DNA from: Armatimonadia bacterium
GTDB lineage: Bacteria; Armatimonadota; Zipacnadia; Zipacnadales; JABUFB01
Assembly (NCBI GenBank): GCA_039679385.1
Contig: JBDKVB010000074.1
Span: 1-64,000 of the forward strand
Reading direction: 5' to 3'
Length of the DNA stretch: 64,000 bases
Part shown: one piece after another, positions 54,938 through 64,000 of the stretch
Layout of the letters: each line of letters begins with the position of its first letter
Position numbering within the stretch: the stretch's first letter is position 1
Position numbers and translations under genes: made by a program
The notes under the pieces: model-generated
What the model was told of the DNA's origin: nothing
Database searches by the model: none
The model's input: the letters and a program-made list of their open reading frames with translations, nothing else

Positions 54938-54960
54938 TCGTGTCTTCGAGGTCACCATCG

Positions 54961-55629
54961 ATGAAGGCAAGGCTACCGGAAGCGCTGGCCCAGATCCCGT
55001 TGTTCGCCGATCTGACCGAGGTGCAACTGAAGGGGCTCACAGATTCGGCCGACGTGGTTGACTATCCGCGCGGGACGGAGCTGTTCTCGGCCGGGCAACC
55101 TGCGGAGAGTTTCCTGGTGGTGCTGGCGGGCGTGGTGAAGGTGTACCTTCTCTCGCCGGACGGGCGGGAGCATATCCTGCATCTGGCTGAAGCCGGGGGT
55201 CTGGTGGCTGAGGGAGCCGTGTTCGCCCAGCGGACCTACCCGGCCTCGGCGATGGCGACGGAAGACTGCGTGGTAGCCAGGTTCTACCGCGACCGACTCG
55301 TAGCGCTGCTGCGCGAAGACCCGGAGCTGTCACTCGCGATGATTGCCGGGCTGTCGCGGCGTCTGCGGGAGTTTGTGGCAACTATCGAGGACCTGTCGCT
55401 ACGGGATGTCGCCGCACGGCTGGCACGGTATCTGGTCGAGAACTCTGTCGGCGGGTTCTGCAAGCTCCCGGGCACGAAGACGCAACTCGCCGCGCAACTG
55501 GGCACGGTGCTGGAGCCGCTGTCGCGGTCCTTCCGGCGACTGCGGGAGGACGGCCTCATCAAGGAACACAAGCAGGGCGTCGCGCTGTTGGACACCGACG
55601 GGTTGCGCGCCCTCTACGAGGGGTGGTAA
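54961..55629 (+). CDS. Crp/Fnr-family transcription regulator (HcpR-like by context)
   Basis: A 222-residue regulator. The N-terminal cyclic-nucleotide-binding-type beta-roll includes YPRGTELFSAGQPAESFLVVLAGVVKVY, then a dimer helix (FVATIEDLSLRDVAARLARYL) and the winged HTH (TKTQLAAQLGTVLEPLSRSFRRL). There is no N-terminal Cys cluster as in FNR, so an oxygen-sensing Fe-S cluster is unlikely; heme or another ligand may be bound, as in DNR/HcpR proteins. The ATG at 54961 follows GAGGT; a GTG at 54940 is possible. The next gene is hcp, with a matching palindrome upstream, so I infer it senses NO. Confidence 0.88.
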   Translation: MKARLPEALAQIPLFADLTEVQLKGLTDSADVVDYPRGTELFSAGQPAESFLVVLAGVVKVYLLSPDGREHILHLAEAGGLVAEGAVFAQRTYPASAMATEDCVVARFYRDRLVALLREDPELSLAMIAGLSRRLREFVATIEDLSLRDVAARLARYLVENSVGGFCKLPGTKTQLAAQLGTVLEPLSRSFRRLREDGLIKEHKQGVALLDTDGLRALYEGW

Positions 55630-55661
55630 CCCACACGGCCGAGAGCACCCATGACACAGCC

Positions 55662-55675
55662 TTGACCTAAGTCAA
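55662..55675 (+). promoter_or_regulatory. Crp/Fnr-type operator upstream of hcp
   Basis: A perfect palindrome TTGAC-CTAA-GTCAA. A likely -10 (TATCAT, 55698-55703) puts its centre near -41.5 from the start of transcription, the classic class II activator position. TTGAC-N4-GTCAA is known for HcpR-type sites. Confidence 0.75.
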
Positions 55676-55751
55676 AGACTGCCGGATCGACGGCGGCTAT
55701 CATCGTGCCAAGGTCGCCGATCCAGTATCGCTCGATCAAGGAGGAAGTGCC

Positions 55752-57383
55752 ATGTCCATGTTCTGCTACCAGTGTGAGCAAACCTTCGGAGGCACCGGCT
55801 GCACCAAGCAGGGGGTCTGCGGCAAGGACGCGACGACCGCCGGCCTGCAGGACCTGCTGATCTTCTCGCTCAAGGGGATCGCTCGCTATGCGAAGCCCGC
55901 TCGTGAGCTGGGCGCCAAGGACCCCGAGATGGATGCCTGGGTCCAGGAGGCCTTGTTCGCCACCCTCACCAACGTCAACTTCGATGCCGAGCGCTTCGTG
56001 GCGTATGTGAAGGAGGCGCAGGCCTGGAAGGACAAGGCGAAGGCGATGCTGCAGCAGGCCGGCGGCACAGTGCCGGAGGACCTCAAGCCTGCGGTTCCTG
56101 CGGATGCCTCGCAAGAAGACCTGATCGCCCTGGCGGCGCTGGTAGGAGTCCTGCAGGATACTCACCCCGATGCCGACGCAACGGCGCTGCGGCAACTGGT
56201 CACCCTCGGCCTGAAGGGCATCTGCGCTTACTCCTTCCACGCACGCGAGTTGGGCAAGACCGACGACGGTCTCGACGCCTTCATCTATGAGGCCCTCGCC
56301 GCGACGACTGATGACTCGATGTCCGTGGACGCTCTCGTGGCGCTGGCGCTCAAGACCGGCGAGATCAACATCAAGGCGATGGAGATCCTCGACGCCGGGC
56401 ACGTGGAGAAGCTGGGCGTTCCCGAACCGGCACCCGTATTCCTCGGCACCAAGGCCGGTCCCGGCATCCTCATCAGCGGGCACGACATGGTCGACCTGCT
56501 GGAGCTGCTCAAGCAGACCGAGGGCACCGGCATCAACCTCTACACCCACGGCGAGATGCTCCCGGCAGTCATGTACCCCGAGCTTCGCAAGTACCCGCAC
56601 CTGGTCGGCAACTGGGGTGGCGCCTGGCAGAACCAGCAGCGGGAGTTCGAGGAGTTCCCCGGCCCGATCGTCATGACCACCAACTGCCTGATGAAGCCGC
56701 GGGAGAGCTATAAGGACCGCGTGTTCACCCTCGGGCCTGTGGGATGGTCGGGCGTCAAGCACCTCGGCCACAGCCGCGACTTCTCCGCAGTAATCGCGAT
56801 GGCCAAGGAGCTGCCGCCGCTGCCTGAGACCGAGGGCAAGACCATCCTGACCGGGTTCCACCACCTGCCGGTGCTGTCGATTGCCGACAAGGTGATTGAG
56901 GCAGTGAAGAGCGGCGCAGTGAAGCACTTCTTCCTCATCGGCGGCTGCGACGGAGCACGCCCCGGTCGGAACTACTACACCGAGTTCGCCGAGAAGGTGC
57001 CCCAGGACTGCATCATCCTGACGCTGGCCTGCGGCAAGTACCGGTTCAACAAGCTGGACTTCGGCGAGATCGGCGGCATCCCCCGGTTGCTCGACATGGG
57101 CCAGTGCAACAACGCCTACTCAGCCGTGCAGGTGGCGCTGGCTTTGGCCAACGCCTTCGGCGTCGGAGTGAACGAGCTGCCGCTGTCGCTGATCATTACG
57201 TGGTATGAGCAGAAGGCCGTGGCGATCCTGTTGTCGCTGCTGCACCTGGGCATCAAGAACATCCGTCTGGGGCCGACGCTACCGGCTTTCGTCACGCCCA
57301 ACGTTCTCGATGTGCTGGTCAAGAACTTCGACCTCAAGCCCATCAGCACACCGGACGAAGACCTAACAGCCTGCCTGAGCTAG
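55752..57383 (+). CDS. hcp: Hydroxylamine reductase / hybrid cluster protein
   Basis: This 543-residue protein carries a 4Fe-4S cluster and the hybrid 4Fe-2S-2O cluster, and acts in nitrosative stress as an NO or hydroxylamine reductase. The N-terminal Cys pattern is C5-x2-C8-x8-C17-x5-C23 (MSMFCYQCEQTFGGTGC), the class I spacing, not the E. coli class II. Later ligands are in NLYTHGEMLPA, IVMTTNCL, FLIGGCDGA and LTLACGKYRFN. AAGGAGG precedes the ATG. Placed right after the Crp/Fnr gene and its operator. Confidence 0.96.
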   Translation: MSMFCYQCEQTFGGTGCTKQGVCGKDATTAGLQDLLIFSLKGIARYAKPARELGAKDPEMDAWVQEALFATLTNVNFDAERFVAYVKEAQAWKDKAKAMLQQAGGTVPEDLKPAVPADASQEDLIALAALVGVLQDTHPDADATALRQLVTLGLKGICAYSFHARELGKTDDGLDAFIYEALAATTDDSMSVDALVALALKTGEINIKAMEILDAGHVEKLGVPEPAPVFLGTKAGPGILISGHDMVDLLELLKQTEGTGINLYTHGEMLPAVMYPELRKYPHLVGNWGGAWQNQQREFEEFPGPIVMTTNCLMKPRESYKDRVFTLGPVGWSGVKHLGHSRDFSAVIAMAKELPPLPETEGKTILTGFHHLPVLSIADKVIEAVKSGAVKHFFLIGGCDGARPGRNYYTEFAEKVPQDCIILTLACGKYRFNKLDFGEIGGIPRLLDMGQCNNAYSAVQVALALANAFGVGVNELPLSLIITWYEQKAVAILLSLLHLGIKNIRLGPTLPAFVTPNVLDVLVKNFDLKPISTPDEDLTACLS

Positions 57384-57404
57384 ACAGTCTGAGGATGGGG
57401 TAGC

Positions 57405-57440
57405 GGGAGTCGAGGCGGCCGGCCTGGGGCCTCGACTCCC
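57405..57440 (+). terminator. Terminator hairpin after hcp
   Basis: A 12-bp perfect stem GGGAGTCGAGGC/GCCTCGACTCCC (57405-57416 with 57429-57440), 22 bases after the hcp stop. Confidence 0.75.
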
Positions 57441-57605
57441 CGGGGTTGGCGCAGACGAGAAGTCGGAGACGACGGTCCTTCACAATCGGGTTCGGTGTCT
57501 CAGTCGCTGGAGCCGGGACGCTCGCTGTTGTCGTGTTCGGCCTGTGCGCCGCACAGGAGAGCGGAGTGATCGCAAGGTCGACTTAGCCTTTAGGAGGGGA
57601 CCACC

Positions 57606-58151
57606 ATGAAGGCGACGGAGGTTCTGCGGCACGAGCACGAGGTCGTGATGCTGGTTCTGAACGGGACGCGGCGTGTTGTCGGGAACCTGGCCGGCGCACT
57701 CCAGGCCGACCCTCTACTGGCGGAGAAGCTGCATGGCTTCTTTGCCAACTTCGTCGACCATTGCCATCACACCAAGGAGGAGCGGCACCTGTTCCCGAGG
57801 CTCTGGCAACGGGGACTGCCGCGAGGACATGGCCCGACGACCCTGATGCTCAAGGAGCATGACCTCGGGCGTGAGATCGTCAGTGACATCGGCGACGTCC
57901 TGCCCGGGGTTGCCAAGGGGGATGCCGAGGCCATCTCGAAGCTGCGTCAGGCGCTGCTTGACTATGACGGCCTGATGCGGGAGCACATCGACAAGGAGAA
58001 TCGGGTACTGTTCATGCTGGCCGAGGACCTGCTCACCGACGCGGACAACGAAGAGCTTGTGGCGGCCTTCGAGCAGGTCGAGACCCAGGAAATCGGTGAG
58101 GGGATGCACGAGAAGTACCACCAACTGGCGCATGAACTCGCCGGTCAGTGA
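57606..58151 (+). CDS. Hemerythrin HHE-domain protein
   Basis: A 181-residue four-helix protein with a likely di-iron site. Ligand motifs are LRHEHEVV, DHCHHTKEERHLF, LKEHDLGR and MREHIDKENRVLF, matching hemerythrin-like proteins such as YtfE/RIC, which repair damaged iron-sulfur clusters and handle NO. Located next to hcp, it fits a nitrosative stress role, but no N-terminal ScdA domain is present. Start ATG 57606 after AGGAGGGG. The cupin gene follows after 14 bases. Confidence 0.92.
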   Translation: MKATEVLRHEHEVVMLVLNGTRRVVGNLAGALQADPLLAEKLHGFFANFVDHCHHTKEERHLFPRLWQRGLPRGHGPTTLMLKEHDLGREIVSDIGDVLPGVAKGDAEAISKLRQALLDYDGLMREHIDKENRVLFMLAEDLLTDADNEELVAAFEQVETQEIGEGMHEKYHQLAHELAGQ

Positions 58152-58165
58152 GAGGAGTGCCTGCG

Positions 58166-58486
58166 ATGCCCGGAGTCGAGAGGGTTGACCTTCACCTGCA
58201 GGACCACGGCGACCGCATGTGTGTCTGGGAGACCGACGAGGTACAGATCATGAGGATTCGGCTGGCGCCGGGTGAGGCTCTGCCACGGCACAACAGCAAC
58301 TCGCACGTCGTGCTGCTTGCACTGGCCGGGCAACTGAAGTTCGAGACACCAGGGCAGACAGAGGTCTTCGGGACGGGAGAGGCACTCAGCGTCCCCTTCG
58401 ACACACAGATGGATATGAGCAACGCGGGAGAGGAGCCGGCAACCTTCCTGGTAATCAAGACGCCGCACCCGAAGAAGATGCACTGA
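58166..58486 (+). CDS. Small cupin-domain protein
   Basis: A 106-residue single cupin barrel. The motifs are GEALPRHNSNSHVVLLALAGQ and EALSVPFDTQMDMSNAGEEPATFLVI. Motif 1 has His in PRHNSNSH in place of the fuller HxH, and the second motif lacks the usual His, so metal binding is uncertain. It probably shares an operon with the hemerythrin gene, with GAGGAG ahead of the ATG at 58166. The role is unknown. Confidence 0.8.
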   Translation: MPGVERVDLHLQDHGDRMCVWETDEVQIMRIRLAPGEALPRHNSNSHVVLLALAGQLKFETPGQTEVFGTGEALSVPFDTQMDMSNAGEEPATFLVIKTPHPKKMH

Positions 58487-58517: not shown

Positions 58518-59246
58518 TCAGCGAGTGGCCAGCACCAGGAAGTAGGGAAGGTGGAGGAAGCAAGACCAGGTATTTCGTGCCCGGCGGATCTCGGCCATGA
58601 CCTCCTGAACTCGCGCTCGCTGCGGCTCGGTGAGGGGCAAGCCCAGGCACAGACCCACGCCTTGCACAGTGGCCGGCTGGGGCATATTGAGAAGCTCAAC
58701 GCACGGCTTCAATCCCGCTTCTTCACAGGCCGCCGGAAGCTTGCGCCCCACAAGGGCGTCGGCTCCGGCGGCCTGTAAACCTTCGATCCACACCTCACGG
58801 AGAGCGACCGACGGCGGGTACTCCATCATCCCGCCGTAGTCAGGCTCCAGGGCGACAAGAGCGCCTCCCGGCTCCAGCACGCGGGCGATCTCGCCCACAG
58901 CCCGCGTCAGATCACCCACCCATAGCAGGATGTTCTGGCAGACCACGAGGTCAAAGCACGCATCGCGGAAGGGGAGATCGCAGGCGTCTGCTGCCACCCG
59001 CCCTGTCGAGGGCGAAGGCGGCGTCTGGACAGCCTCGAGACGGCGGTCCAGGCAGACGAGCTCGCCCGGAACCCGACGGGCCAACTCCTCGCTCACCACT
59101 CCGTGGCCGCAGCCGATCTCGAGCACACGCTGACGCAGCCCGATCTGCGCCCGTCGCAGGAGACGACTCCGCGGAGCTGCCAGCCAGGAAGCCAGGCGCT
59201 CCGACTGGGCAAGAGAGGGCAAGTCGGGTCGCAAGGGCTCGGGCAT
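58518..59246 (-). CDS. Class I SAM-dependent methyltransferase
   Basis: A Rossmann-fold methyltransferase of about 242 residues. Motif I is VLEIGCGHGVVSEEL, the acidic loop LVCLDRRLEAV, then AADACDLPFRDACFDLVVCQNILLWV and ARVLEPGGALVALEPDYGG. The target is unknown. The start is uncertain (ATG 59246 or GTG 59276). It is the last gene of a tight minus-strand cassette after the Cys-tailed membrane protein, so that protein or a product of the radical SAM pair may be its substrate. This is inference from position. Confidence 0.82.
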   Translation of the reverse strand: MPEPLRPDLPSLAQSERLASWLAAPRSRLLRRAQIGLRQRVLEIGCGHGVVSEELARRVPGELVCLDRRLEAVQTPPSPSTGRVAADACDLPFRDACFDLVVCQNILLWVGDLTRAVGEIARVLEPGGALVALEPDYGGMMEYPPSVALREVWIEGLQAAGADALVGRKLPAACEEAGLKPCVELLNMPQPATVQGVGLCLGLPLTEPQRARVQEVMAEIRRARNTWSCFLHLPYFLVLATR

Positions 59247-59283: not shown

Positions 59284-61152
59284 TCACCGTCCGCCTCCTG
59301 CACAGGCACAAGCGCAGGCACATCCGGCGCAGGCGCAGGCACATCCGCCGCCACCACCGCCTCCCCCACTTCCGCTGGAGGAGGATATCGTGTCGAGCAC
59401 ATCGAGGCTCACCTTGTCCATGCCGGAGAGGTCCATCACGCCGCCTCGGGCACCCGGGACTGTGAGACCGTCAAGGCTTGACGACAGGCCACCGGCAACG
59501 TTCTCCGTCCACCCGGCGAAGGAGGAGGCCACGTCGCCAAAGCTCGTATGGCCGCCCACACCCGTATCCGGAGCCGGTGTCGGTATGCCGCCTCCACCGA
59601 AGACCGGACCGGTGCGTATCCAGGGCGGGTCATAGCGATAGCCCGTCCCGTACCAGGTGCCGAAGCTGTCGTTGTAGTCCGGCGCCAGGAGCATCCAGAG
59701 CAGGTTGTCGTCGGTGTAGGTCGTGCGCTCCTGCAGGTCGCCGAGGCCCTTGGCCTCCGACCACGCTTTGGAAACGATCAGCTTGTAGTAGCTGCGGGTC
59801 TTCTCGACATCGAAGCCCTTGAGCCGCGCCGCGGTGTCGACGATCAGACCCTCCATCGCGGGCTTGAGATTGACCTTGTCGACGCGGGTGCTCTTGGCCT
59901 CACGCAGGGCGTCGATGAGACGCTGCTCATAGGCATGGACGACGGTGCCCTGCTCCTGGGCCTGCTTGCGTCGCGCACCACGCTCCTCGGCCTCGTAGCC
60001 GGGATTCAGGGCAACGGAAAGCGGCTTCGTGTCGAGCTGCTTCACGATACCCTTCTTGAGCAACCCGAAAAGTACCAGCGCGAGGACACGATTCAGCGGC
60101 AGCTCCAGCAGAACGGCAGCTTCCGGCGCTGTCAGCCCGCGCTTGATGTCGCCGCCCTCGACCGAGGCAATAGGCGGCAGGTAGTGACCGCGACGACGCT
60201 TCAGCCCCTTCTCCGTGAAGTACCAGACCAGGAGCAGGACCGGAAAGGCGGCCAACTCCACGCCGGGGCTGGCACTGAAGCAGGCGATCAGCAGGATCAG
60301 GAGCGGCACGAAGCAACTGCAGCCCGTCCCGGCACTGGCGCGGAAGAACATGATGCCGAAGAGGATCAGCACGAAGGCACCCCAGAGGAGCCGCACGTCC
60401 GGGGATTCGCGCCACCACTTCATGAACAGCGCGAAGGGCGTCATGTACATCACGTGGGTCATGTTGCGCTTCGGGAAGGACAGGCCGACCATGTGCGGGC
60501 CATCGAGCCGAGTGCCCTGGAAGCGCCACTCCACCATCGTGTACTTGTCGGTTACGAACTTGCGGTTGAAGGGCTGGCGCTCGTCCTGGTAGAGCACTTC
60601 GTCCGGCTTGAGGTCTTTGGGCAAGTAGACCGTAACGTAGAGGTCGGTTGTGCCCTGCACATACTGACTGCCGAACCAGGTCGGGGTGATGCGTAGGGAG
60701 GCGTAGTCCTTGCGCGTCGTGTCCTGCCAGACCATCGAGGGCATGCGGCACAGGAAGCTGAAGCGCCCTGAGGCGCCAGGCTGGATGCTCTTGTCGCCGA
60801 GGTTGACCGCCACGCCATACTCGACGTAGGGTGACTTCTCGAAGCTGTAGACGCGCTCACCGTCGACGGACGCCACCATCTGGCTCATGTCGTAGTCGCC
60901 ATGGGGCAGGCCGACGTCGACGGCGTCGATGGCATGGGCTCCCGGTGCACACTTGAAGTCGATGGTGTACTCCAAGGTCACGGAGGCGTCCGGATTCACC
61001 TCCACCGCCAGCAGCATCTTCGGCACGGAGAACAGGTACTCCTGGGCCGAGGCAGTGACGGCGAGGGTGGTCAGCAGCGCCAGGGCCAGCAGCACCGAGA
61101 GGTGCGCTGCAGACCTGCCGGAGGCTGGTCGTCGGGAAGTGCGGAGGGTCAT
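59284..61152 (-). CDS. DUF2207-type membrane protein with a Cys-Ala repeat C-terminal tail
   Basis: A 622-residue membrane protein. A signal peptide (to about residue 37), a beta-rich external region (40-235), membrane segments near 256-271, 280-293 and 299-312, then a cytoplasmic domain with winged-helix-like LTAPEAAVLLELPLNRVLALVLFGLLKKGIV. This layout matches DUF2207 proteins. The last 33 residues are unusual: Ser, then Gly8, then CACACAGCACACACAGGGR, with seven Cys at every second residue in runs of three and four. ATGA overlap with the upstream radical SAM-like gene shows tight coupling. The tail may bind metal or be modified by the neighbouring enzymes. Confidence 0.82.
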   Translation of the reverse strand: MTLRTSRRPASGRSAAHLSVLLALALLTTLAVTASAQEYLFSVPKMLLAVEVNPDASVTLEYTIDFKCAPGAHAIDAVDVGLPHGDYDMSQMVASVDGERVYSFEKSPYVEYGVAVNLGDKSIQPGASGRFSFLCRMPSMVWQDTTRKDYASLRITPTWFGSQYVQGTTDLYVTVYLPKDLKPDEVLYQDERQPFNRKFVTDKYTMVEWRFQGTRLDGPHMVGLSFPKRNMTHVMYMTPFALFMKWWRESPDVRLLWGAFVLILFGIMFFRASAGTGCSCFVPLLILLIACFSASPGVELAAFPVLLLVWYFTEKGLKRRRGHYLPPIASVEGGDIKRGLTAPEAAVLLELPLNRVLALVLFGLLKKGIVKQLDTKPLSVALNPGYEAEERGARRKQAQEQGTVVHAYEQRLIDALREAKSTRVDKVNLKPAMEGLIVDTAARLKGFDVEKTRSYYKLIVSKAWSEAKGLGDLQERTTYTDDNLLWMLLAPDYNDSFGTWYGTGYRYDPPWIRTGPVFGGGGIPTPAPDTGVGGHTSFGDVASSFAGWTENVAGGLSSSLDGLTVPGARGGVMDLSGMDKVSLDVLDTISSSSGSGGGGGGGGCACACAGCACACACAGGGR

Positions 61153-62453
61153 GATGCCTCACCGTCCTTGCGGTCGTCACTCCAGGAATCTACGTTCCGG
61201 GGGCATGCAGCTTCGCAGATCTCCAGCCCCGGACAAACCTCGCAAGGCACGGGCGCAGCCTCACCCTCCCGGTAGGGAGCAAAGCAGGGCGCAGCCCAGA
61301 TCTGGGCCCACTCCTGCTGCAGCAGATTGCCTGCCTTGACGCGCGGCCCACGAGGCGGATAGACGGAGCCGTCCGGCTCGACGCGCACGGAGGCGTCACT
61401 GCCCGCACGCGGACCGCTGACAATCTGCTCAGCCAGGGTGCGTCGCAGGTCGAAGCGCACCGGCGGCTCCCAGAGGAAGCGAGCGTTCACACTCTCCGAA
61501 CCTTCCGTCACCGACGCAGCCACCTGGGGGAGACTGCGAGCGGCAAGAGCCCCGGCGGCGTCCTCCTGCTCCTCCCCATCCAGACAGGCCACGGCAAAGA
61601 AGGAGTAGTTGCTCACTTTGTGCTGAGTTCCCCAGACCACCATTTCCTCCAGCTCCTGTGCGCTGAAGTCCGTCAGCGGGACCTGGAGCACCGGACAGAG
61701 CTCCAGCGCGCGACAGAGCTTCAAGGCCCGGAGGACGCTGTCGTAGTCCTCAGCGCCCACCAGTCGATTGTGCTCCTCGGCGTCGACGGAGGCCAGCACG
61801 ACGGTCAGGTAGTCCAGGCCCGCCAGCGATGCGGCGGTGAGCTCTTCGTCGCCGAACCAGGAAGCGAGACCGCGGACCCCGGTGATCATCCCCAGGTCCT
61901 CGGCACACTCCACCAAGCGCACCAGCTCCTCCCCGGGGGTCTGCGCAGTGGGCAGGAAGGTGACGTGCGGGATGGCCGCCTCCCACAGCGCCCGCAGCAC
62001 AGGCTCCAGGACCTCCGCACGATCGGCGGTGACGAAGGCTCGATGCGGAGCGATGAGCCTGCGTCCGACCGTGCTCTCTCCGCGGATGCCGACGTTGGTG
62101 ATCGGGTAGTTGTCGTCGGGCGAGGAGAGGTCGTCGATGCGATGGTGCATCTGCCACAGATCATCGGCGATCTCGGGGTCTGTGGCCCCGCCGAAGTGGG
62201 CTCGCACGTCGGCCTTGATGGCGATGTCCTCGCGCCCACTGAGGATCCCGTGGGCCATGAACACACCGACCGGCGAAAGCACCGCAGCCTCGGAGGCGTT
62301 CGCCAGGAGCAGACCGCCGCCGTCAGTGTCGACGCGCAGATGGAAGCGCACCGGTGGATCGGTCTCCGTACGGGTGAAGTGATATAGCCCCGGCTTGATG
62401 GGCGCGGCCGGTGGTGGTGGCGGACCGAAGAGTCGACGCCAGTTGATGGGCAT
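61149..62453 (-). CDS. Radical SAM/SPASM-like protein lacking the CxxxCxxC motif
   Basis: A 434-residue homologue of the next gene upstream. It shares the N-terminal module IKPGLYHF, RFHLRVDTDGGGLLLANASEA (compare KPGLYQW and RLHLRVEADGTGLLLVN), possibly a PqqD- or RRE-like peptide-binding region. Where radical SAM enzymes have CxxxCxxC, it has NYPITNVGIRGESTVG, with no Cys, so it cannot hold the catalytic cluster. It lost the first SPASM cysteines (ASVRVEPDGSVYPP) but keeps CEVCPGLEICEAAC (C-x2-C-x5-C-x3-C). It is probably a non-catalytic partner subunit. It starts two bases after the active enzyme's stop. Confidence 0.75.
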   Translation of the reverse strand: MPINWRRLFGPPPPPAAPIKPGLYHFTRTETDPPVRFHLRVDTDGGGLLLANASEAAVLSPVGVFMAHGILSGREDIAIKADVRAHFGGATDPEIADDLWQMHHRIDDLSSPDDNYPITNVGIRGESTVGRRLIAPHRAFVTADRAEVLEPVLRALWEAAIPHVTFLPTAQTPGEELVRLVECAEDLGMITGVRGLASWFGDEELTAASLAGLDYLTVVLASVDAEEHNRLVGAEDYDSVLRALKLCRALELCPVLQVPLTDFSAQELEEMVVWGTQHKVSNYSFFAVACLDGEEQEDAAGALAARSLPQVAASVTEGSESVNARFLWEPPVRFDLRRTLAEQIVSGPRAGSDASVRVEPDGSVYPPRGPRVKAGNLLQQEWAQIWAAPCFAPYREGEAAPVPCEVCPGLEICEAACPRNVDSWSDDRKDGEAS

Positions 62454-62455
62454 CC

Positions 62456-63868
62456 CTACAGGCCTCCCTGGGCTTGCGGATCCTCAGAGCGGATAGAACC
62501 GGCAGCTGCAAGTGAGGGCTTCGGCGTCTGTGAGGCTTCTTTGGAGACCTGCTCGAGCAGGCACCCGCCGCCACAGACCGGGAGGTCAGGACAGGTCCAG
62601 CATCGCTGCGGAAGCCCCGCCTCACAAGGGTGCTCGCGACGATTGCGGATCCGGGAGAAGAGCGGGCTCTCCCAGATCGCGGACCACTCGTCGGTCAGAA
62701 GATTCCCGGCGGGCTCGTAGTAGGACTGACAGGGCAAGACGTCGCCGCTGGGCTCCACGCATACGGAGTACTCGGCGGCATTGCAGGCCTTCGGTCCGAG
62801 CTCCAGGTCCAGGGGCGAGAGCTTGCAGTACTGCGTCGGCGTGTACCACAGGAAGCGCATCCCGAGTTCCTCGGCCCGGCTGCGAACACGGTCGAGGAGC
62901 GGGATCAGACTAGCCTCGGTAAGCGACGTCGGGTTGTGGCAGCCGCCGCCAGCGCAGATCATCCCGTTCATTGCGAAGGTCGTGATGCCCAGGCTGTGTA
63001 GGAAGTCCACCATCTCGACCGCCTTGGACTGCGTAGCGGAAGTCAGCGTCGTGTTGGTGATGGTGTGCAGTCCTGCGTCGAGGGCGGACTGGATGCCCCG
63101 CACGGTCTGGGCCTGAGCACTGGCCCCGACCATTGCATCGTGGACCTCGGCATCGGGCGACTCGAGGGTTACCTGCACATGGTCCAGACCCGCCCGGGCG
63201 AGCTTGCGTGCCAGTCCGTCCCTGGCCAGTTGCCGGCCGTTGGTGTTGAGGCCGGTGGCCAGTCCCAAGCGCTCAGCGGAGGCAACCAGTGCGGGCAAGA
63301 AGGGCACCAGGGTCGGCTCGCCGCCGGTGAAGATCACGTGGGGCACACCGATGGTCGTTAGCTTGCGCAAGGCGCGCTGCCACTGCGGAAGGCTCAGCGA
63401 GGCCATGCTCTTGCGGCCCGGCTCGTTGTAGCAGTGCGCGCAGGCATTGTTGCAGGCGTAAGTCAGGGCAAGGTCGGCCTTATACGGGGCCCGGGCACGC
63501 GTTGAGAAGACCGGGCGGCGCTCAAGCTGCAGGCCACAGGTCGGGCAGCCGGCCTGCGGTGTCCTGGCTCGCTGGAGGAGTTCGGCAACGCGGCCAAGGT
63601 CGGCCTGGAGCTGATCCGCGGGCACCTGTGGGTACCAGTTGTGCAGCAGCCGCGCCACCTGGGAGACGCTTACCCCGTCCAACAACATGCGCGCCATCTC
63701 GGTAGCCAGGGCAGACAGGTGGACGGCCTCCCACACGTTGACCAGCAGGAGGCCGGTTCCGTCGGCCTCGACTCGCAGGTGAAGGCGCACCTGCTCCTGC
63801 GAGCCGCCGTGGAAACGCCACTGGTACAGACCCGGTTTGGTGCGGCCACTGCCCACGGTCACCCGCAT
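62456..63868 (-). CDS. Radical SAM/SPASM peptide- or protein-modifying enzyme
   Basis: A radical SAM enzyme of about 470 residues. After a PqqD/RRE-like N-terminal module and a CPTC pair, the core is LALTYACNNACAHCYNEPG (CxxxCxxC), FTGGEPTL and GLNTNGRQLA. The SPASM region has CNAAEYSVCVEPSGDVLPC and CWTCPDLPVCGGGC, enough Cys for two auxiliary clusters. Such enzymes form thioether or C-C links in peptides or make cofactors. The start is uncertain (ATG 63868; GTG 63877; an open frame reaches 63982 but overlaps the upstream gene). It leads the cassette of four genes. Confidence 0.85.
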   Translation of the reverse strand: MRVTVGSGRTKPGLYQWRFHGGSQEQVRLHLRVEADGTGLLLVNVWEAVHLSALATEMARMLLDGVSVSQVARLLHNWYPQVPADQLQADLGRVAELLQRARTPQAGCPTCGLQLERRPVFSTRARAPYKADLALTYACNNACAHCYNEPGRKSMASLSLPQWQRALRKLTTIGVPHVIFTGGEPTLVPFLPALVASAERLGLATGLNTNGRQLARDGLARKLARAGLDHVQVTLESPDAEVHDAMVGASAQAQTVRGIQSALDAGLHTITNTTLTSATQSKAVEMVDFLHSLGITTFAMNGMICAGGGCHNPTSLTEASLIPLLDRVRSRAEELGMRFLWYTPTQYCKLSPLDLELGPKACNAAEYSVCVEPSGDVLPCQSYYEPAGNLLTDEWSAIWESPLFSRIRNRREHPCEAGLPQRCWTCPDLPVCGGGCLLEQVSKEASQTPKPSLAAAGSIRSEDPQAQGGL

Positions 63869-63930: not shown

Positions 63931-64000
63931 CTACCACTTCGGGGCCTCCTCGAGCTGATAGGAGGTGCCACAGTAGGGGCACTTGACGAACATGGCGCCC
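63931..64000 (-). CDS. C-terminal end of a zinc-ribbon protein (cut by window edge)
   Basis: The visible 22 residues end MFVKCPYCGTSYQLEEAPKW, followed by a TAG. CPYCG is half of a zinc ribbon. It could be the tail of a longer gene outside the window or a complete 20-residue peptide starting at 63993. It lies just upstream of the radical SAM gene. Confidence 0.4.
   Translation of the reverse strand, partial: GAMFVKCPYCGTSYQLEEAPKW

Follow-up and report, generated by a model that had tools for sequence, protein, structure and literature searches.

Radical S-adenosylmethionine (SAM) enzymes of the SPASM type are known from several systems in which Cys-bearing substrates are modified or are proposed to be modified. 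In the ACGX system, Cys-repeat proteins (TIGR04117) are encoded beside a radical SAM/SPASM enzyme (TIGR04340) and are curated as its probable targets. In haloarchaea, the pseudo-SAM/SPASM protein TIGR04347 is found next to the radical SAM enzyme TIGR04053 and a candidate ribosomally synthesized and post-translationally modified peptide (RiPP; NZ_CP119797). The sactipeptide maturases SkfB and TrnC/TrnD are SPASM radical SAM enzymes that act on Cys-bearing substrates. Here, we describe a gene cassette on a stretch of 64,000 nucleotides from an Armatimonadia bacterium (phylum Armatimonadota; contig JBDKVB010000074.1, positions 1 to 64,000), hereafter the window. The logic of this cassette matches that of the known radical SAM/target systems: a radical SAM/SPASM enzyme, together with a catalytically dead twin, probably modifies the Cys-Ala tail of a neighbouring membrane protein of the DUF2207 type.

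As in haloarchaea, a dead and an active radical SAM protein are combined with a proposed target. Unlike TIGR04347, for which the window twin reaches 27.5 of 525 bits and stays below the cut-off, the twin groups with the radical SAM enzymes of its own cassette in a small tree. Unlike the TIGR04117 targets, the repeat studied here is located at the C-terminal end of a large membrane protein. The proposed substrate, a protein of about 560-670 amino acids with membrane segments, also differs from the short secreted peptides modified by sactipeptide maturases and is not a short precursor with leader and core. No RiPP precursor peptide of the latter kind was seen in a search of small open reading frames that was not exhaustive. 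In the reported complex of TrnC and TrnD, the radical SAM activity of TrnC alone is strictly essential (PMC12093266), and to that extent the pair provides a precedent for a partner whose own radical SAM activity is not strictly needed. SPASM radical SAM chemistry has furthermore been described for TVGG repeat peptides in an article whose accessible part mentions Asp-Cys repeats and not a Cys-Ala tail (PMC9062424). In NCBIfam release 20 and in Pfam, no family specific to the cassette reaches its cut-off, and no account of the cassette was found in the open-access literature.

The Cys-Ala tail and its neighbourhood

Four genes of the cassette reside on the minus strand between 63868 and 58518 in the order radical SAM/SPASM enzyme (62456..63868, 470 amino acids), pseudo-radical SAM/SPASM paralog (61149..62453, 434 amino acids), DUF2207-type membrane protein (59284..61152, 622 amino acids) and class I SAM-dependent methyltransferase (58518..59246; PF08241, 70.3 bits). 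The first two genes are separated by 2 nucleotides, the second and third overlap by 4 nucleotides and a gap of 37 nucleotides precedes the methyltransferase. An initial sequence-only reading of the window had described four genes head to tail; order, strand and tight spacing were correct, but the methyltransferase falls outside the interval that it assigned to the cassette (59284-63868) and a fifth gene was overlooked. This fifth member encodes a small hydrophobic protein with a C-terminal zinc ribbon immediately upstream of the radical SAM gene (3' end at 63931..64000, minus strand; 111 amino acids, with a start beyond the window, L007 931-1266). A homolog is found directly upstream of the radical SAM gene in most relatives with an unbroken contig.

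The membrane protein comprises a signal-like N-terminus, an N-terminal domain, hydrophobic and presumably transmembrane segments near residues 251-313 followed by a K/R-rich stretch (hydropathy), a C-terminal domain, a Gly run and finally the Cys-Ala tail CACACAGCACACACAGGGR (59287..59343, minus strand), the proposed substrate site. Forty such tail stretches from 39 genomes were examined. Thirty-eight share the final 17 residues, CACAGCACACACAGGGR, and the remaining two, both from lineage f18, read CACACACASCACACAGGGR and ACACACASCACACAGGGR. One of the 38 is the second copy of genome G283 (L105); a base-by-base comparison of the other 37 revealed 37 distinct DNA versions with a mean of 10.4 pairwise differences in 51 nucleotides, synonymous variation at every codon and not a single amino acid change. 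The Gly run ahead of the tail is variable in length, and over its full length the protein shares 44-57% identity with that of the window, or 32% for the f18 pair. The constancy of the tail residues despite drift of the DNA indicates that every Cys and Ala, the Gly separating the two blocks and the terminal GGGR are maintained by selection.

Two trivial explanations for the tail were considered and dismissed. Repeat slippage or a sequencing artefact is ruled out by the synonymous variation at every codon. Selenocysteine came into question because several matches contain an in-frame TGA, but the tails themselves are free of TGA and the open reading frames end in the tail; the in-frame TGA is taken to precede the start codons.

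The genomes searched were those of this phylum, complemented by plasmid and viral records. The membrane protein was detected in 33 of 201 genomes. In the larger set of 291 genomes, the tail pattern occurs in 39, in one copy each except for two in G283, and exclusively on this membrane-protein family, while a reversed control pattern gave a single hit in the entire set. Cassette-type radical SAM enzymes (47% identity or more) are present in 36 genomes. Both elements coincide in 35, four genomes have only the tail and one has only the enzyme (Fisher p 1.5e-39, kinship ignored). In the last of these, G059, the contig stops short of the tail; in two of the tail-only genomes, G156 and G195, the locus runs into a contig end. 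The sequence-only reading had named Cys-Ala tails that are widespread without a radical SAM neighbour as an observation that would speak against a link. Such a distribution was not seen in the phylum, and the families are both found together and adjacent. Of the 40 genomes that encode the membrane protein, 30 have radical SAM enzyme, twin and membrane protein one after the other, in this order, on a single contig, and 17 have all five genes together, with an additional gene inserted in G104. The ten without the ordered trio comprise contig breaks (G009, G091, G156, G195, G065), a split locus (G073), G033 and G110, and two genomes without a twin (G090, G008). A contig of a candidate division WS1 metagenome-assembled genome (L009) shows the identical five-gene order and the identical tail. 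The inserted gene in G104 encodes a large membrane protein and is located between the radical SAM and twin genes (L047 3587-5629); at the same position G065 carries a gene that looks nuclease-like by eye (L115 2665-3711).

Spread of the cassette on plasmids was rejected as the membrane protein has no homolog in the plasmid collection. Most of the radical SAM matches listed there are PqqE, mycofactocin or TIGR04347 proteins. A profile scan of IMG/VR did not yield a relative. A pattern scan of the same database returned four stretches, three of them in unrelated contexts. In the fourth (L163 5856-6152), at the contig edge and next to phage-like genes, a related protein ends in the short tail CACACAGGGR, and no methyltransferase homolog follows.

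Enzyme, twin and a sister system with CHSA tails

The radical SAM enzyme of the window matches PF04055 (83.5 bits) and PF13186 (33.2 bits) above the cut-offs, and all 29 relatives scanned match both at E<=1. The sequence-only reading had credited the enzyme with a full set of CxxxCxxC and SPASM cysteines. This is borne out by the window protein and by all 30 full-length relatives, in which these residues are invariant (37 found, 7 partial or fused ones excluded). The nearest solved structure to the enzyme profile is that of the sactionine-forming SkfB (1.3e-26). The label "cysteine-less" given to the twin proved accurate for the radical SAM motif, since CxxxCxxC is present in none of 33 full-length twins, and too loose for the SPASM region, where the four last cysteines are kept in 29, 32, 32 and 30 of the 33 (37 found, 4 partial or odd ones excluded). 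In Pfam, the SPASM match of the window twin, its only one, is borderline (21.8 versus 21.5 bits); at E<=1, all 22 twins scanned match.

Twins and cassette radical SAM enzymes are 25-32% identical and cluster together (99/99) in a tree of 41 proteins, which suggests that the twin arose by duplication of the cassette enzyme. The timing of the duplication relative to the branching-off of the twin-free f18 lineage has weak support (81/44). In G016, enzyme and twin form a single open reading frame (L063 9082-11733). The two f18 genomes have kept radical SAM enzyme, tail protein, zinc-ribbon protein and methyltransferase in a different order, in which the zinc-ribbon gene precedes that of the tail protein.

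Retention of the methyltransferase in f18 in the absence of the twin places it in the core set. The nearest NCBIfam family to the window protein is DVU_1556 (NF045667; 63 of 155 bits, below cut-off), and this family is matched by all 28 methyltransferase members at E<=1e-5. The reading frame is open from 59402 and a longer form would overlap the tail codons; 59246 is the most likely start because the conserved part in relatives begins past the tail. Downstream of the cassette, on the opposite strand (window 54940-58486), lie genes named by eye as Crp-like regulator, hybrid-cluster-protein-like, hemerythrin-like and cupin genes.

A second set of loci, all outside the window (L117-L128, L165, L166), repeats the pairing with another tail. 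Weaker homologs of the radical SAM enzyme (33-38% identity, E<=1e-30) are present in 12 genomes, and their neighbours include proteins ending in CHSA repeats. The CHSA pattern occurs in 13 of 291 genomes, including all of these 12; in the thirteenth, G168, the CHSA gene is near a radical SAM enzyme 55% identical to one of the CHSA branch. The sister-branch enzyme thus accompanies the CHSA tail in 13 of 13 genomes; in 12 of them the two genes share a contig, with a spacing of no more than about one gene, and in G122 they are on different contigs. The CHSA-branch enzymes form one clade (100/99) that is joined with cassette enzymes and twins (91/84); this sister relation is provisional as outgroups are few and long-branched. 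TIGR04117, the family of the ACGX targets, matches the CHSA proteins far below the cut-off (16.1 and 13.8 of 50 bits in two of four scanned) and the Cys-Ala protein not at all. At one locus, the CHSA-tail gene adjoins a gene that appears LemA-like by eye (L126 7970-10294).

The CHSA proteins also provide the link to DUF2207 (PF09972), a family that includes Streptococcus mutans SMU.243. By itself, the window membrane protein has no match in Pfam or NCBIfam, and none of 27 cassette membrane proteins matches PF09972 at E<=0.1. Their profile matches the CHSA-tail proteins with an E value of 2.1e-21, and one of five CHSA proteins scanned (L125) passes the PF09972 cut-off (32.5 versus 24.4 bits). 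Among solved structures nothing convincing matched, and an AlphaFold model computed from two sequences had a predicted local distance difference test score (pLDDT) of 43.8 and was not used. PF09972 matches occur in 62 of 201 genomes, two of them (G135, G199) at CHSA-tail genes. Thirty ordinary DUF2207 loci, none with CHSA, served as control: their C-termini, readable in 23 cases, are Gly runs with W, F or R and, unlike the cassette protein, never contain a Cys repeat (0/23). No cassette enzyme was matched at these 30 loci, a partial check of adjacency given flanks of only about 1.5 kb. To our knowledge, ordinary DUF2207 proteins have no radical SAM partner.

The tail had been put forward as a candidate target in the sequence-only reading, and this assignment is well supported by adjacency, by co-occurrence and by the plain Gly tails of homologs without the enzyme. 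An alternative is that the genes stay together by shared descent of a stable neighbourhood only, with no functional link between enzyme and tail. In its favour, the bulk of the genomes with the tail come from a single order within a single phylum, and the Fisher test takes no account of kinship. This explanation appears very improbable to us in view of six tail genomes outside the class, two of them with a different gene order, the fusion of radical SAM enzyme and twin in one genome and a CHSA pairing that repeats the pattern with different neighbours.

Several observations weigh against modification of the tail by enzyme and twin. No radical SAM enzyme was found in G033 and G110, although the visible flanks bear other genes; in G073, enzyme and zinc-ribbon protein are encoded on a separate contig; and the second tail copy of G283 (L105 6442-6609), at a contig end, is not accompanied by a cassette enzyme on its 6.6-kb contig. 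Absences of the enzyme are not proof, because the search scored five candidates at most in most genomes. The f18 lineage lacks the twin, which is therefore not strictly needed. Finally, the PqqD-like N-terminus of the window enzyme remains below cut-off (17.9 versus 23.4 bits), and matches at E<=1 are restricted to 8 of 29 radical SAM enzymes and 5 of 22 twins.

Candidate chemistry of the tail

DUF2207 proteins are described as having their N-terminus outside the cell and a Gly/Ser-rich C-terminus inside it (PMC10457818). This topology and the agreeing hydropathy imply that the tail would face the cytoplasm, where radical SAM enzymes work. We propose that the enzyme and its dead paralog act there on the C-terminal tail, the twin possibly serving as recognition or scaffold subunit and the PqqD-like modules of both proteins perhaps helping to grip the segment preceding the tail. 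The enzyme would activate C-H bonds of the Ala residues adjoining Cys. Tentatively, and with slightly less than even confidence, we envisage that Cys sulfur is joined to Ala by intramolecular thioether cross-links, which would fold the two CA blocks into a hairpin around the central Gly. The methyltransferase may methylate the tail or its C-terminus.

The main alternative to the thioether hairpin is a tail of alternating L and D residues, with the enzyme epimerising Ala or Cys, or performing another C-H reaction, and the cysteines then binding metal. Ala is as invariant as Cys, as expected if Ala reacts, and the CHSA tail likewise retains the Ala before Cys. The nearest solved homologs by profile, in a comparison that did not contain epimerases, nevertheless include formers of thioether and C-C bonds (SkfB, PqqE, 5v1q), and we consider thioether-free chemistry rather unlikely. 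Less likely still, the tail stays unmodified and serves as a metallothionein-like metal or cluster site, while the radical SAM enzyme makes something else or modifies another protein. CxC repeats are typical metal ligands, a zinc-ribbon protein belongs to the set and G033 and G110 have the tail with no detected enzyme; plain metal binding, however, leaves the invariant Ala and GGGR unexplained, as well as the matching of two enzyme branches to two tail types.

If the tail is cross-linked as we propose, the finished structure might, as a guess, serve in redox chemistry or metal binding while permanently anchored in the membrane. By extension to both branches, it is conceivable, at odds a little short of even, that on the cytoplasmic side of the membrane radical SAM enzymes turn the Cys-repeat C-termini (CA, CHSA) of DUF2207-type proteins into cross-linked cofactors or metal sites, and that no secreted peptide is produced. 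In one of the branches, a dead paralog and a methyltransferase would assist. For an uncharacterised radical SAM enzyme a precise substrate sequence can be named, which makes its chemistry directly testable. The natural pair of active and dead enzymes, fused in one genome and twin-free in another lineage, offers a handle on the role of dead radical SAM twins. The DUF2207 proteins, widespread and obscure in function, now include lineages in which strong selection clearly acts on the C-terminal tail.
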